Source of the DNA: a bacterium
Lineage (GTDB): Bacteria > Pseudomonadota > Gammaproteobacteria > Burkholderiales > Thiobacillaceae
DNA length: 64,000 bases
Reading direction: 5' to 3'
NCBI GenBank assembly: GCA_009772925.1
Contig: WOUQ01000007.1
Span: 1-64,000, forward strand
Every line of letters starts with the position of its first letter. The stretch's first letter is position 1. Below are positions 10,295 to 63,957 of this stretch, piece after piece. The position numbers and the translations under genes are program-made. Under the pieces are notes generated by a model. The model was not told the DNA's origin, did no database searches, and was given only the letters and a program-made list of their open reading frames with translations.

Positions 10295-12463
10295 CTATTT
10301 TCTGCGCGCCTCGTGCATGCCGCGGACGTGGCCCGCCCGAGTCAGGAAACGGGTGAGCTGGGTCAGGTCGCGTACTTCCAGGGTGAATTCCATGCGCGCC
10401 GATTCCTGCTGCGAGAGCGTGTTGAGGCGGATCACGTTGATCTTTTCCTGGGACAGGATTTCCGAGACGTCCTTCAACAGGCCCGGCCGGTCCTGAGCCA
10501 GCAGTTCCACATCCACCGCGAACACCTGATCGTCGCGTCCGCCCCATTCCGCGCGCAGCAGCCGCGCCCGCTTGTCCTCCGGCAGGTGGGCCACCATCGG
10601 GCAGTCGGCGCGGTGGATGGTGAGGCCGTGGCCCTGCGTGGTGTAGCCGACGATGGCGTCGGGCGGCGCCGGCTTGCAGCAGCCGGCCATGTGCGTGAGC
10701 AGGCCCGGCTCGCCCTCCACCAGCACACCGCCGGCGTCGTCGCGGCGCCGCGAGGCGGCCACCAGCGGTTTTTCCGGGGGCGGCGCGAATTCGTCCTGCA
10801 GCGCGCGATCGAGCTGGCCGATACCGAGGTCGCCGCGTCCCAGCGCGGCGCAGAGTTCGTCCGGGCCGGGAAACTTGAGGCGCGCGGCGATCTTTTCGAG
10901 ATTGGCGTTGAGCAGGTTCAGGCGGTGCAGCTCGCGGTCCAGCAGTTCGCGGCCTTCCTGCACATGGGTATCGTGGTCCTGCTGCTTGAACCATTGCCGC
11001 ACCTTGGCGCGCGCGCGGTGAGTCTTCAGCACGCCCAGATGCGGATTGAGCCAGTCGCGGCTGGGACCGCCCTGCTTGACCGTGAGGATTTCCACGCGCT
11101 GGCCGGTGGCCAGTGCGGTATCCAGGGGCACCAGGACGCCGTCCACCTTGGCGCCGCGGCAGCGATGCCCCAGCTCCGTGTGCACGGCATAGGCGAAATC
11201 CAGCGGCGTGGCGCCGGTCGCCAAGGCGATCACCTTGCCCTGCGGGGTCAGCACGAACACCTCGTCCTGGAACAGTTCGTTGCGGAAATGCTGGGCCAGC
11301 TCGTGGCTGTCGGCGATTTCCTGTTTCCAGGCCAGCAACTGGCGCAGCCAGGCGATCTTGTCCTGCGTCCCGTCGCCGCCGCCCTTGCCGCCGCCTTCCT
11401 TGTAGCGCCAGTGCGCGGCGACACCCAGCTCGGCCTCCTGGTGCATGTCGAAGGTGCGGATCTGCACCTCCAGGGCCTTGTTCTCGGGACCCACCACAGC
11501 GGTGTGCAAGCTCTTGTAGCCGTTGCCCTTGGGGCGCGAGATGTAGTCGTCGAACTGGCCGGGAATGGGCTGCCAGAGGCTGTGCACCAGGCCCAGTACG
11601 TGGAAGCAGTCCTTGACGTCGCGCACCAGCACGCGCAGGGCACGCACGTCGTAGACCTCGTCGAAGGACAGGCGCTTCTTGCGCATCTTCGCCAGGATGC
11701 TGGCGATGTGCTTGGGGCGGCCGCTGACGGAGTGGCCGCTGAGGCCTTCACCGTCGAGGACCGCGCCCAGCTGCCGCACGACCTGGTCGATGTACCACTC
11801 CCGGTCCAGGCGGCGTTCGTCCAGTAACCTGGCGATCTGCCGGTAGGTTTCCGGTTCGAGGTAGCGGCAGGAAAGGTCCTCCAGTTCCCACTTCAGCTGC
11901 CAGACGCCCAGACGGTTGGCCAGGGGGGCATAGAGTTCGCGAACGTCGGTGGAGACCTTGCGACGCAGGCTTTCGTCGCCGTCGGCCAGCTCGCGCAGGG
12001 CCTGGGCGCGTTCCGCAAGCTTGATGAACACCACGCGGATGTCGTCGGTCATGGCCAGCAGCATCTGGCGCAGGGCCTCGCTCTGGCCGCCCTCGACGTT
12101 GAGCTGCGTGATCAGGTGGTCCAGCCGCGAGAGTTTGGCCGCGCCCTCCACCAGGCTGGTGAGATGCGGGCCGAAATGGGCGAGCAGGGTGTCGCGCCGT
12201 ATGTTCTTTTCCGGCAGGCCGCAGAGCAGAGCGGCCGCCACGGTTTCCGCGTCGAAACGCATGCCGGCGAGCAGCGCGGCGGTACCCAGGCTGTGTTCGA
12301 GCAGCGAGCAGCCCGTATCCACGGCCTCCTCCCCACCGTGCGTGGCCAGCCAGTCGGCGGCCTGCTTCAGCAGCTTGCGCTGTTCCTCGGGATAGCGGTC
12401 GGCAAGACTGGCGAGCCAGGATTCCGCGTCACCGTGGGCGAGGGCGAGGGCGTGGGCAACCAT
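10295..12463 (-). CDS. relA: (p)ppGpp synthetase RelA
   Basis: RelA makes (p)ppGpp on stalled ribosomes. The 722-residue order is: pseudo-hydrolase HD domain (about 30-190), synthetase (about 235-360, with SGRPKHIASILAKM and RPKGNGYKSLHT), TGS (about 395-460), helical/zinc-finger-like region (CCKPAPPD) and C-terminal ACT (about 645-722). The hydrolase motif HDxxED is replaced by CGLPEK (residues 81-86), so it should be synthesis-only. bamD lies upstream on the same strand, 107 bases away. The 5' region carries a heptad repeat (12479-12506) and no Shine-Dalgarno before ATG 12463. Confidence 0.95.
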   Translation of the reverse strand: MVAHALALAHGDAESWLASLADRYPEEQRKLLKQAADWLATHGGEEAVDTGCSLLEHSLGTAALLAGMRFDAETVAAALLCGLPEKNIRRDTLLAHFGPHLTSLVEGAAKLSRLDHLITQLNVEGGQSEALRQMLLAMTDDIRVVFIKLAERAQALRELADGDESLRRKVSTDVRELYAPLANRLGVWQLKWELEDLSCRYLEPETYRQIARLLDERRLDREWYIDQVVRQLGAVLDGEGLSGHSVSGRPKHIASILAKMRKKRLSFDEVYDVRALRVLVRDVKDCFHVLGLVHSLWQPIPGQFDDYISRPKGNGYKSLHTAVVGPENKALEVQIRTFDMHQEAELGVAAHWRYKEGGGKGGGDGTQDKIAWLRQLLAWKQEIADSHELAQHFRNELFQDEVFVLTPQGKVIALATGATPLDFAYAVHTELGHRCRGAKVDGVLVPLDTALATGQRVEILTVKQGGPSRDWLNPHLGVLKTHRARAKVRQWFKQQDHDTHVQEGRELLDRELHRLNLLNANLEKIAARLKFPGPDELCAALGRGDLGIGQLDRALQDEFAPPPEKPLVAASRRRDDAGGVLVEGEPGLLTHMAGCCKPAPPDAIVGYTTQGHGLTIHRADCPMVAHLPEDKRARLLRAEWGGRDDQVFAVDVELLAQDRPGLLKDVSEILSQEKINVIRLNTLSQQESARMEFTLEVRDLTQLTRFLTRAGHVRGMHEARRK

Positions 12464-12478: not shown

Positions 12479-12506
12479 CAAGATGCAAGACTCAAGCTTC
12501 AAGTAA
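12479..12506. repeat. Degenerate 7-bp tandem repeat upstream of relA
   Basis: Four CAAG cores begin at 12479, 12486, 12493 and 12500, an exact 7-base period: GCGCAAG, ATGCAAG, ACTCAAG, CTTCAAG. The tract lies 16 bases upstream of the relA start codon, on the side where a Shine-Dalgarno would be expected. Confidence 0.75.
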
Positions 12507-52017: not shown

Positions 52018-52026
52018 GATGCAGCC

Positions 52027-52100
52027 GCTAGCGAGTGGCCTGTAGCGCGTAGCTACAAGCCCCGCTACCCGCTCCGAGCCACCCGCTACCCGCTAGCCCT
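52027..52100. repeat. Degenerate heptad-repeat hairpin upstream of pyrH
   Basis: A T recurs every 7 bases at 52029, 52036, 52043 and 52050 (GTAGCG-type units), then the opposite orientation follows with T at 52066, 52073, 52087 and 52094 (GCTACCC-type units; the 52080 unit is mutated). The two halves pair at 19 of 27 positions. The tract fills the whole tsf-pyrH gap and ends directly before ATG 52101, leaving no Shine-Dalgarno. Confidence 0.8.
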
Positions 52101-52819: not shown

Positions 52820-53377
52820 ATGATCGCCGACATCAAGAAATCCGCCGAAGACAAGATGAAGAAATCCGTCGAGGCCCTGCGCGTCGAGTTCACCAAGGTG
52901 CGCACCGGCCGGGCCCACGCCGGCATCCTCGACCACGTCAAGGTGGATTACTACGGCAGCCCCATGCCCATCAGCCAGGTGGCCAACATCAGCGTCATCG
53001 ATCCCCACACCCTCGGCGTGCAGCCCTGGGAAAAGAAGATGGCCGCGGCCATCGAGAAAGCCATCCGCGATTCCGACCTGGGCCTCAACCCCGCCTCCAT
53101 GGGCGAGCTGGTGCGCGTGCCCATCCCCGCCATGACCGAGGAGCGCCGCAAGGAGTTGGTCAAGGTGGTGCGCGGCGAAGCCGAGGGCGGCAAGGTGGCG
53201 GTGCGCAACATCCGCCGCGACGCCATCGCCCATCTCAAGGAACTGCTGAAGAACCACGAGGTGGGCGAGGATGACGAGCGCCGCGCCCAGGACGAGATGC
53301 AGAAAATGACCGACAAGTACATCGCCGAGATCGACAAGCATCTGGCCGACAAGGAAAAGGATCTGATGTCGGTGTGA
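52820..53377 (+). CDS. frr: Ribosome recycling factor
   Basis: RRF splits post-termination ribosomes with EF-G. The 185-residue product has [27 protein letters not shown] and [12 protein letters not shown]-like [15 protein letters not shown] motifs. A strong GAGGAGAGAAAG Shine-Dalgarno precedes ATG 52820, in contrast to pyrH and uppS. Confidence 0.98.
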
Positions 53378-53380
53378 TAC

Positions 53381-53477
53381 AGCGGGTAGCTCGTAGCGGG
53401 TAGCTTGTAGCTATCATTCAGCGCGCCGAAGGCGCGGGAGCATTCAGCTACCGGCTACCCACTACCGGCTAACAGCT
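53381..53477. repeat. Heptad-repeat long hairpin between frr and uppS
   Basis: Left arm 53381-53412 and right arm 53446-53477 are each built of 7-base units (GCGGGTA, GCTCGTA, GCTTGTA; GCTACCG, GCTACCC, ACTACCG) and pair at 25 of 32 positions. Between them is a nested perfect hairpin CGCGCC-GAA-GGCGCG (53422-53436). There is no T-run. The tract ends 6 bases before the uppS ATG at 53484. Confidence 0.82.
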
Positions 53478-53483
53478 CGCCAA

Positions 53484-54236
53484 ATGATCAAGCGCTTCCT
53501 CAGCTCCACCGCCACCGTTCCGGAAACCACGCAGGTTCCGCGGCACATCGCCATCATCATGGATGGCAACGGACGCTGGGCGAAGAAACGTCTCATGCCG
53601 CGCGTCGCCGGGCATGCCCAGGGCGTGGAACGCGTCCGCGACGTGGTGGAAGCCTGCATCCGCCGGGGCGTCGGCTACCTCACCCTGTTCGCCTTCAGTT
53701 CCGAGAACTGGCGGCGTCCGCAGGACGAGGTCAGCCGCCTGATGGAGTTGTTCGTCATGGCCCTGGAGCGCGAGGTGGAGCGCATGGCGGACAACGGCGT
53801 GCGCCTGAAGGTGGTGGGCGATCTGTCCCGCTTCGAGCCGCGTCTGCGCGAGCTCATCACCCAGGGCGAAGCGCGTACCGCCGCCAACACCCGCCTCACC
53901 GTCACCGTTTGCGCGAACTATGGCGGTCGCTGGGACATCCTCAACGCCATGAATGCCTGGCGGCGGGAGCATCCGGACGCCACCGAGATCGGCGAGGCGG
54001 AGCTCGCTCCCTATCTTTCCATGGCCTACGCGCCGGAACCCGATCTGTTCATCCGCACCGGCGGCGAACAGCGCGTCAGCAACTTCCTGCTCTGGCAACT
54101 GGCCTACAGCGAGTTGTATTTCACCGATACCCTGTGGCCGGACTTCGACGCCAAGGCCCTGGATCAGGCCATCACCTCCTACCGCAAGCGCGAGCGCCGC
54201 TTCGGCCGCACCAGCGAGCAGCTCCTTGAGCGTTAG
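53484..54236 (+). CDS. uppS: Undecaprenyl diphosphate synthase
   Basis: UppS makes the C55 lipid carrier for peptidoglycan and O-antigen. The 250-residue protein has [18 protein letters not shown] with the catalytic Asp, [11 protein letters not shown], and [23 protein letters not shown] 53484 has no Shine-Dalgarno; the heptad hairpin ends 6 bases before it. It overlaps cdsA by 11 bases. Confidence 0.97.
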
Positions 54237-61963: not shown

Positions 61964-62740
61964 ATGCCCGGCATTCATCCCACCGCCCTCGTCCATCCCG
62001 GCGCCAGGCTGGGAACGGGCGTGGAAATCGGCGCCTACAGCCTGGTCGGCGAGCACGTCGAGATCGGCGACGGCACCCGCATCGGCCCGCACGTGGTGCT
62101 GGCCGGGCATACCCGACTCGGCGCGGGCAACCGCATCTTCCAGTTCTGCTCCATCGGCGAGGAGCCGCAGGACAAGAAATACGCCGGCGAACCCACCCGC
62201 CTGGAGATCGGCGATGACAACGTCATTCGCGAGTTCTGCACGCTCAATACCGGCACCGCGCAGGATGCCGGCGTCACCCGCCTCGGCCACCACAACTGGA
62301 TCATGGCCTACGTGCACATCGCGCATGACTGCGTGGTCGGCGACCACACCATCTTCGCCAACAACGCCACCCTGGCCGGCCACGTGCAGGTTGGCGATTA
62401 CGCCATCCTCGGAGGCTTTACCGGCGTCCACCAGTTCTGCCGCGTGGGCGCCCACGTCATCACTGGCATCGCCTCGGTGGTGCGCCAGGATGTGCCTCCT
62501 TTCCTCACCGTCGCCGGCAATCCGCTGGCGCCGCACGGCGTCAACGCCGAGGGCCTGAAGCGGCGCGGTTTCTCCGCCGAAGCCCTGGCCGGCCTCAAAC
62601 GCGCCTACAAGACCCTGTACAAGTCGGGCTTGTCCCTGGCCGAGGCGCAGGCCGCGATCGCCGAGGAAGCGCAACGCCTGCCGGAACTCGAACCCCTGGC
62701 GAATTTCCTGGCCACCTCCGGACGGGGCATCGTGCGGTGA
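61964..62740 (+). CDS. lpxA: UDP-N-acetylglucosamine acyltransferase LpxA
   Basis: LpxA does the first committed step of lipid A synthesis. The 258-residue left-handed beta-helix has HPTALVHPGARLG, catalytic His in YVHIAHDCVVGD and the C-terminal helical domain. It starts 4 bases after fabZ and overlaps the lpxB GTG by 4 bases. Confidence 0.97.
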   Translation: MPGIHPTALVHPGARLGTGVEIGAYSLVGEHVEIGDGTRIGPHVVLAGHTRLGAGNRIFQFCSIGEEPQDKKYAGEPTRLEIGDDNVIREFCTLNTGTAQDAGVTRLGHHNWIMAYVHIAHDCVVGDHTIFANNATLAGHVQVGDYAILGGFTGVHQFCRVGAHVITGIASVVRQDVPPFLTVAGNPLAPHGVNAEGLKRRGFSAEALAGLKRAYKTLYKSGLSLAEAQAAIAEEAQRLPELEPLANFLATSGRGIVR

Positions 62741-63957
62741 GGCGCGAGGCGGAGCAGTCGCGGGCGGCTGCATGCCCCGTGTCGATCCCCTCATCCCTGA
62801 CACCTCAACCCTCAAGCCTCAACCCGAAAGTCGCCATCGTCGCCGGCGAGGCATCCGGCGACCTGCTCGGCAGCCTGCTCATGCGCGCGGTGCGCGACGC
62901 GGGCCTGCCGGCCGACTTTTTCGGCATCGCCGGACCCCGCATGCAGTCCGCCGGCGCGCGCATCCTGTTTCCCATGGAGGCGCTCTCGGTGCGCGGCTAT
63001 GTCGAGGCCCTGGGCAGCCTGCGCAAGATCCTCGGCATACGCCGCGCCCTGAAGAGTCGCCTGCGCGCCGATCCGCCCGCGCTGTTCATCGGCGTCGACG
63101 CGCCGGACTTCAACCTGTCCCTGGAAGCCGGGTTGAAGCGGGCCGGCATCCCCACCGTGCATTTCATCGGCCCGTCGATCTGGGCCTGGCGCCCGAAGCG
63201 CATACGCAAGGTGCGCGCCGCGGCTTCCCACGTCCTGCTCATCTTCCCCTTCGAGGAGGAGATCTACCGCGAGGCCGGCATTCCCGCCACCTACGTCGGC
63301 CACCCGGTCGCCCACGCCCTGCCCGAACCGGATCGCGCCAGGGCGCGCGAACGCCTGGCCCTGGCCGCCGACGGCGAGTATGTGGCCCTGCTGCCGGGCA
63401 GCAGGCCCGGCGAGCTCAAGGCCCTGGCGGCGCTGTTCATCGAGACCGTCAAACACCTGCACCAGGCGCGGCCGGACGCCCGCTTCCTGATACCCCTGGT
63501 CAACCGGGAAACCCGCCTGCTATTCGAACAGGCCCTGCATCGCGCGCAGGCCACGGAACTGCCCATCCGCATCCTCTTCGGGCATGCCCACGACGCCATG
63601 CAGGCGGCCGACGTCGCCCTCATCGCCTCGGGTACCGCCACACTGGAGGCCCTGCTGCTGGATTGCCCGCACGTCATCACCTACCGGGTGCCCTGGCTGA
63701 CCGCGCAGATCATGAAACGCCAGGCCCTGCTGCCCTGGATCGGCCTGCCCAACATCCTGGCGAAGCGCGACCTGGTGCCGGAAATCCTGCAGGAGCGGGC
63801 TACCCCGGAAAACCTGGCGAACGCCCTGCGCGGCCTGCTCGAGGATGAAGGCGCGCGCCAGGCGCAGATCGAGGAATTCCGCATCCAGCGCGCGCGTCTG
63901 CGGCGCGATACGCCGCGTCTCATCGCGCATGCCCTGCGCCCTTTTCTCCAGGGGTGA
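62737..63957 (+). CDS. lpxB: Lipid A disaccharide synthase LpxB, uncertain start
   Basis: LpxB joins UDP-diacylglucosamine and lipid X. The 406-residue open frame has the family core KVAIVAGEASGDLLGSLLMRA, FFGIAGPRM, VDAPDFNL, GPSIWAWRPKRI and LLPGSRPGELKAL. The core begins only at about residue 31. The first 30 residues, including PSSLTPQPSSLNP, come from a heptad repeat and are not conserved. GTG 62737 (coupled to lpxA) or GTG 62779 may start translation; there is no start codon right at the core. Confidence 0.94.
   Translation: MRREAEQSRAAACPVSIPSSLTPQPSSLNPKVAIVAGEASGDLLGSLLMRAVRDAGLPADFFGIAGPRMQSAGARILFPMEALSVRGYVEALGSLRKILGIRRALKSRLRADPPALFIGVDAPDFNLSLEAGLKRAGIPTVHFIGPSIWAWRPKRIRKVRAAASHVLLIFPFEEEIYREAGIPATYVGHPVAHALPEPDRARARERLALAADGEYVALLPGSRPGELKALAALFIETVKHLHQARPDARFLIPLVNRETRLLFEQALHRAQATELPIRILFGHAHDAMQAADVALIASGTATLEALLLDCPHVITYRVPWLTAQIMKRQALLPWIGLPNILAKRDLVPEILQERATPENLANALRGLLEDEGARQAQIEEFRIQRARLRRDTPRLIAHALRPFLQG
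62789..62823. repeat. Degenerate 7-bp tandem repeat at the lpxB 5' end
   Basis: Five exact-length units in a row: CCTCATC, CCTGACA, CCTCAAC, CCTCAAG, CCTCAAC. The last unit ends 5 bases before the codons for the conserved VAIVAGEASGD core of LpxB. Confidence 0.82.

Follow-up and report, generated by a model that had tools for sequence, protein, structure and literature searches.

What are the four tracts with a 7-base period that lie at the starts of relA, pyrH, uppS and lpxB in the window, the 64,000-nucleotide stretch of a Thiobacillaceae genome (G000) analysed here? The original prediction took them for repeats with a strict period, confined to the starts of essential or global genes, and the four gene identities agree with Pfam. 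The strict period was borne out at two of the four: Tandem Repeats Finder gave period 7 or 14 at the uppS and pyrH tracts, and the lag scan detected the uppS tract in both its arms and the pyrH tract in its right arm (52060-52098). The features in and around these two tracts are as follows.

52024..52098, + strand: tsf-pyrH element (second copy), degenerate GTAGCNN arms and a short centre; basis: sequence, homology search, lag scan and fold
52820..53377, + strand: frr, upstream neighbour (stop 53375-53377); the element begins 3 nt past the stop
53381..53412, + strand: left arm of the frr-uppS element, the G-rich arm of GTAGCNN heptads; basis: sequence, homologous copies and fold
53413..53445, + strand: centre of the frr-uppS element, containing the GC-rich mini-hairpin CGCGCCGAAGGCGCG
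53446..53477, + strand: right arm of the frr-uppS element, NNGCTAC-type heptads
53484..54236, + strand: uppS, downstream neighbour, starting 6 nt beyond the element

In the frr-uppS element, the pentamers of the right arm are those of the left arm in reverse complement, which does not strictly hold for the NN positions, and the NN pairs of the two arms are not required to match in the GTAGC copies. Folding identifies the uppS tract as a hairpin (RNA z -5.6, DNA z -3.3), with values of -4.2 (RNA) and -1.8 (DNA) for the pyrH tract. A 301-nt query found 15 matches in the same genome, and a composite-element query returned 32 rows, with 12 places at E 0.001 or better; the pyrH copy matched the composite element at E 0.08 only (52064-52095). 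Both tracts thus belong to a dispersed palindrome, made up of a GTAGCNN arm, a centre and an NNGCTAC arm, and are copies of it that lack an ORF. They were previously described as repeats, and a simple tandem repeat is rejected as their identity since the units build the inverted arms of one hairpin at each place. Neither copy encodes a PF05635/TIGR02436 protein, and both sit in intercistronic spacers (tsf-pyrH and frr-uppS), not inside 23S rRNA. An Rfam-listed element was also rejected, with zero Rfam matches in the window, as was a tRNA-related site.

The lpxB and relA tracts did not behave in the same way.

62786..62837, + strand: lpxB tract, a single period-7 arm with unit CCTCAAN, lying after the stop of lpxA and before the conserved start of LpxB
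12479..12506, - strand: relA tract, a weak run of four NNNCAAG units in the spacer before relA, whose minus-strand start is at 12463

Folding supported no hairpin at the lpxB tract (z 0.03) or the relA tract (z +1.3). The strict period claimed for relA did not stand: the run is weak and stays below the scan threshold, and it could be the remnant of an arm or a product of chance. In the longest ORF, Pfam places the beginning of the LpxB domain at residue 32, and the lpxB tract precedes the domain. At 62737-62830 of the window, the lpxB ORF may start within a heptad-derived stretch.

The claim that such tracts occur only at the starts of essential or global genes failed on a larger sample of the genome. 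In 464 kb (the window and a further 400 kb), with a tract defined as at least 19 of 28 lag-7 matches, 46 lag-7 tracts were found, 33 of them intergenic, and most lie in intergenic spacers. Lags 4, 5, 8, 10, 11 and 13 gave 0, 0, 4, 2, 1 and 3 tracts in the same 464 kb; none of these lags is a multiple of 3, and the lag-7 count is above chance. Lags 6, 9 and 12 gave 45-58 tracts each, just 1-4 of them intergenic, as codon periodicity predicts. When merged into 35, 23 tracts lie between co-directional genes, 3 between divergent genes, none between convergent genes and 9 inside called genes; the co-directional tracts have a median gap of 0 nt from the upstream stop and 2 nt to the next start, placements that are approximate because the genes were called with a simple purpose-written caller. 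The heptads are of the types GGGAAAC, GTAGCNN, CCTCACG, GGACTGA and GAGTGGC, and palindromes related to the GTAGCNN element are built from GGGAAAC, GGACTGA and GAGTGGC. The sister genome G020 gave similar counts, 45 lag-7 tracts with 33 intergenic, in stretches picked at known GTAGC matches. In some places the arms have grown into long near-perfect arrays, e.g. (GTAGCGA)n and (GTAGCTG)n (G020 L114:14414-14576 and L105:9462-9629; G024:C1:1129597-1129664).

Of the 41 relatives, 10 contain three successive GTAGCNN units, as do 22 of 398 phylum members; the reversed-pattern control turned up in 1 and 9 of these genomes, respectively, with no more than 3 hits each. GTAGC palindromes occur in at least 114 stretches from named genomes of many phyla, a figure that indicates spread rather than frequency; 80 of the 114 listed were inspected, and a few (e.g. 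Frankia) may be chance. This cross-phylum scatter is one that we take to resemble that of the 'four helix bundle' family PF05635, the 23S rRNA intervening-sequence protein (hereafter IVP). PF05635 profile matches were present in 11 of the 41 relatives, 10 of them above the cut-off. Within the genus, IVP accompanies the pattern in 7/7 pattern-positive genomes vs 1/16 others (p 3e-5), and in the phylum sample in 14/22 vs 48/376 (p 1.5e-7), both p values ignoring phylogeny. Two genomes have the pattern and no IVP (G023, G039), and three have IVP, in one case as a weak match, and no pattern (G005, G035 and, weakly, G040). Pooled intergenic lag-7 tracts number 83 in 1.27 Mb of IVP-positive sequence vs 4 in 0.74 Mb, a contrast carried by two sister genomes, one of them sampled at known hits; the per-genome test on enlarged samples was not significant, with p 0.06 (0.11 at a stricter threshold), and a 20-kb syntenic comparison, too small a sample, gave p 0.11. 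IVP-positive G010 and G019 had zero intergenic lag-7 tracts in 100 kb each.

The link becomes direct at the IVP genes themselves, which usually lie between inverted arms of 7-bp units whose heptad varies by locus. We read all 20 places of the relatives' search and 28 new ones from the longer phylum list, and the statistics cover the 80+80 nt flanks of 39 non-redundant loci, including L241, which adjoins a reverse transcriptase (RT) and probably encodes an Avd protein. Lag-7 matching in these flanks was 44.6%, compared with 25.6-29.4% at the other lags from 3 to 13 and 26.1% at control places, and lag 7 was the top lag at 33/39 loci vs 44/780 control places. The upstream arm scored 18.2 against its own reverse-complemented downstream arm and 8.1 against those of mismatched loci, the own arm being the best partner at 22/39. 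Lag 7 was not on top at six loci (L241, L245, L263, L277, L268 and L275). Two of these, L263 and L277, belong with L376 and L380 to a minority of IVP loci that have period-8 arms instead, and at L245, a locus of our own genome, lag 7 reached 0.39 vs 0.44 for lag 6. The G-rich arm is upstream in 37/38 loci, and the IVP gene is co-oriented with the upstream gene in 34/35 and with the downstream gene in 28/33 determinable loci. Among plasmid loci, for which 12 of 27 records were read (11 outside the phylum, ten of them cyanobacterial), periodicity is weaker, with lag 7 on top in 7/12 and period 8 in two or three; the inverted-arm score is again high (17.6 vs 8.6). Two IVP loci lie within 23S rRNA, L248 with lag 7 on top and L381 without a clear period 7. 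Co-evolution of IVP and arms is visible only weakly: likeness of IVPs and likeness of arms correlate overall (Mantel r 0.27, p 0.0005), with r 0.09 (p 0.15) among distant pairs.

Our own genome has two IVP genes, at L235 with GGACTGA arms and at L245 with GGGAAAC arms, the latter between dnaK and dnaJ (Pfam). They represent an IVP-bearing form that carries the PF05635/TIGR02436 gene, as 23S rRNA intervening sequences (IVSs) do. The L245 arm ATTCGGGAAACGGGAAAAGAGAAACGGGAAACGC recurs nearly intact, odd unit GAGAAAC included, in ORF-less copies such as those at L077:8658 and L083:1370. When the intergenic tracts of G000 (33) and G020 (34) were compared with the arms of 20 IVP loci, every one of them scored at least 16 with some arm, and the best-matching arm belongs to the same genome for 16/33 and 25/34, respectively; of the single tracts of G015, G012 and G016, two of three reach 16 and none has its best match in the same genome. 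The arm-scoring thresholds (18-21 of 28) were our own choice. Real G000 tracts average 23.6, compared with 9.6 for random pieces as a matched control (3/315 reach 16), 9.5 for tract-free intergenic sequence (1/210), 10.0 for lag-6/9/12 tracts (1/154) and 13.8 for the tracts themselves with permuted heptad columns (7/33). Terminal inverted repeats are thus common to ORF-less copies and ORF-bearing relatives, a feature of MITEs. For the GTAGC copies of the window, the best IVP-arm match is a G020 element between guaB and guaA (names assigned by eye), and their arm relatives in other genus members score best in sister G020 or G015. No IVP with GTAGC arms was found in our own genome, nor was the counterpart of the G020 guaB-guaA region found in our assembly.

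Comparison of orthologous sites shows that the elements come, go and change. Across the genus, 22 members could be read at the frr-uppS spacer (in G005, frr had no match). In nine of them the spacer is palindrome-free and 24-35 nt long, and in G003 it measures 66 nt with no evident palindrome; G000 and G020, which are about 95% identical, carry the same element, and the other ten have longer spacers with mostly decayed or different palindromes. The observation that would have told against the original prediction, normal leaders in relatives with repeats elsewhere, was therefore made in part, in those nine of 22 genomes. Between G000 and G020, some spacers share an element, several have palindromes of different units at exactly the same place, and in two cases elements of 118 and 103 nt face empty spacers of 12 and 14 nt, a presence/absence at orthologous sites that is likewise typical of MITEs; no target-site duplication was evident by eye in these two pairs. 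In eight orthologous GTAGC copies of the two sister species, N positions differ at 25/100 and pentamer positions at 20/334 (p 5e-7), although the labelling needs a recognisable pentamer and so favours the contrast. One copy (C63b) changed in length by exactly one 7-nt unit, another has several gaps including 7 and 14 nt, and a third differs by 4 nt; in two orthologous copies the centre is inverted in place, as judged by eye. The idea that the period is kept while the units drift is upheld by the N-position contrast and by the one-unit change. The sister species also have non-heptad palindromes in the same spacers. The frr-uppS and tsf-pyrH junctions look as if they were shared landing sites. 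Unrelated palindromes occupy them elsewhere, at frr-uppS in G012 (L290) and at tsf-pyrH in G016 and G011 (L304, L307), of the ATTCCCGC...GCGGGAAT and GGATGGGTTGAGCG types.

Considering the dispersal of the palindromes, their inverted heptad arms, the IVP linkage, the locus-specific heptads, the presence/absence and the arm matches within the genus, we think it somewhat probable that the uppS and pyrH tracts are the arms of ORF-less members of an IVS-like mobile family with IVP-bearing and MITE-like forms, in which IVP recognises or holds the heptad hairpin and enables its spread. The full form would combine a G-rich arm, about four 7-bp units long, with the IVP gene (PF05635/TIGR02436) and an inverted C-rich arm; ORF-less copies would retain the arms and a short centre, like MITEs, and be moved in trans. 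We know of no enzyme activity of IVP, and no transposase was identified for the element family. The IVP of our genome resembles the solved XCC0516 protein (2GSC) at E 7e-27. That protein is presumably the Xanthomonas S23p whose structure is given, in the sections of PMC4990558 considered here, as a homopentamer of four-helix bundles. IVP, whose solved homologue forms a pentameric ring, would recognise or hold the folded 7-bp-periodic hairpin, and IVP with host enzymes that move DNA or cDNA would spread it into spacers between co-transcribed genes. An RNase III-cleavable hairpin may be tolerated in such spacers, as in 23S rRNA, and would presumably be processed there. Recognition or stacking of the arms may depend on period 7 and so preserve it, and the heptad units would turn over through slippage, inversion and exchange.

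The order of events may instead be reversed, with palindromes spread first by slippage or another mobiliser and IVP genes settling later in a safe loop or intercistronic site. We regard this as unlikely, though clearly the strongest of the alternatives. It agrees with the lack of any IVP gene among the heptad tracts of the 464 kb sample, compared with two in the whole genome, with the GTAGCNN pattern of G023 and G039, and with the different palindromes, non-heptad ones included, in the same spacers of sister species. However, the heptad varies between IVP loci and yet agrees across both arms of each. When 2.85 Mb were searched for ORFs framed by a pair of heptad tracts, 10 pairs came up; several resemble two adjacent ORF-less copies with host genes between them, and no other kind of cargo was recurrent. 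This argues only weakly against palindromes first, since the scan also missed a known IVP element in L101.

It is improbable that a Y1 transposase or RT encoded elsewhere mobilises the palindromes. The dispersed intergenic palindromes with GTAG tags look REP-like, and one of our own IVP genes (C29:4588-4902) lies about 3 kb from a RAYT-type Y1_Tnp gene (C29:1116-1439), but Y1_Tnp was found in 7/10 pattern-positive vs 22/31 negative genomes (p 0.68) and not in pattern-positive G010, G015 and G020, so that RAYT/REP was rejected as the mobiliser. RT has a weak association (8/10 pattern-positive vs 13/31 other genomes, p 0.04), and Avd, a relative of IVP, works with RT in diversity-generating retroelements. 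Nevertheless, RT was not found in pattern-positive G010 and G020, the single IVP-like gene that adjoins an RT among the 41 relatives, the weak match of G040, lacks heptad flanks (lag 7 0.24), and the one RT hit of G000 is on another contig than its IVP genes, unlike the adjacent RT of Avd; on an association this weak, RT was rejected as well. Slightly less probable still is selection of the repeats as devices that control translation at gene starts. Many elements do have their end no more than about 12 nt from a start codon, and their RNA folding is strong; they abut the upstream stop too, because the element fills short intercistronic spacers, and nine of 22 genomes do without a palindrome at frr-uppS, so the start-codon device envisaged for essential or global genes is not supported. 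Against the IVP-driven family that we prefer, the evidence that counts includes the pattern without IVP in two genomes and IVP without the pattern in three, the few tracts of G010 and G019, the density p values of 0.06 and 0.11, the loci where lag 7 is not on top, the rRNA locus without a clear period 7, the lack of a GTAGC-armed IVP in our own genome, the Mantel result for distant pairs, the nearness of one of our IVP genes to Y1_Tnp and the two element/empty pairs with no evident target-site duplication.

Parts of this picture are already in print, namely heptad repeats (PMC4692102, PMC4679880, PMC2700814) and IVS elements (PMC4990558, PMC11270868), as far as the sections compared extend. 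The closest likeness is the 23S rRNA IVS, which combines a hairpin with an S23p/IVP ORF; the Coxiella IVS is excised by RNase III and has tandem heptads upstream of its ORF, according to the same sections of PMC4990558, and one of our two 23S rRNA loci has lag 7 on top. In contrast, the window elements are intercistronic and ORF-less, and the other rRNA locus shows no clear period 7. The GGGAATC and GGGGA(C/T)T heptads of Xanthomonas and Nostoc are alike in their mode of four units, degeneracy, intergenic position close behind the upstream ORF and inverted pairs (70 and 75 cases), but were studied as G-quadruplexes, generally without a link to mobile elements, and the sections of PMC4692102 compared do not mention IVP. 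The TAACTGA repeats of Beggiatoaceae near start codons (PMC4679880) and the heptanucleotide elements of Geobacter metallireducens between and within genes (PMC2700814) are also dispersed 7-bp units, but are read as regulatory in the parts compared; the terms S23, helix bundle and intervening have zero occurrences in the PMC4679880 text searched. REP/BIME with RAYT and MITEs share short dispersed palindromes with an ORF-bearing relative, whereas our elements have 7-bp-periodic arms, no association with Y1_Tnp, and no identified transposase or target duplication. In the open-access literature, to which our search was directed, we found no report joining PF05635 to heptad arms in general, and this general link may be new.

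A wider proposal, which we hold tentatively and at somewhat below even chances, is a phylum-spanning class of mobile element that encodes a single protein, a pentameric four-helix bundle, and terminates in inverted 7-bp (rarely 8-bp) arrays. It would include the 23S rRNA IVSs as well as the heptads of Xanthomonas, Nostoc, Beggiatoaceae and Geobacter. Instead of one set sequence, its protein would recognise periodicity and handedness (G-rich first), which would let the heptad drift in step in both arms. If the IVP-driven family is real, it would provide an origin for heptad repeats that several papers describe and leave unexplained, give a role to the widespread 'four helix bundle protein', and make the 23S rRNA IVSs the rRNA-resident tip of a broader family of elements. 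IVS movement would then be testable in ordinary environmental bacteria, with the prediction that IVP binds its own heptad hairpin.

Three further observations concern the sites of IVP genes. The same operon junctions are reused across species, often with different heptads: guaB-guaA, rmlB-rmlA, yebC-ruvC and gmd-fcl (L231-L233, L236, L243, L246, L266, L237, L242, L255, L258, L264), names that, unlike dnaK-dnaJ, were assigned by eye from flanking peptides. On cyanobacterial plasmids, IVP genes lie within CRISPR-Cas operons, flanked by cas genes (L371, L377, cas6-cas4; L379, cas10-cmr3). At L239 and L240, the IVP frame continues into the heptad arm, placing the repeat-encoded NPKSEIRNPK at or near the C-terminus.
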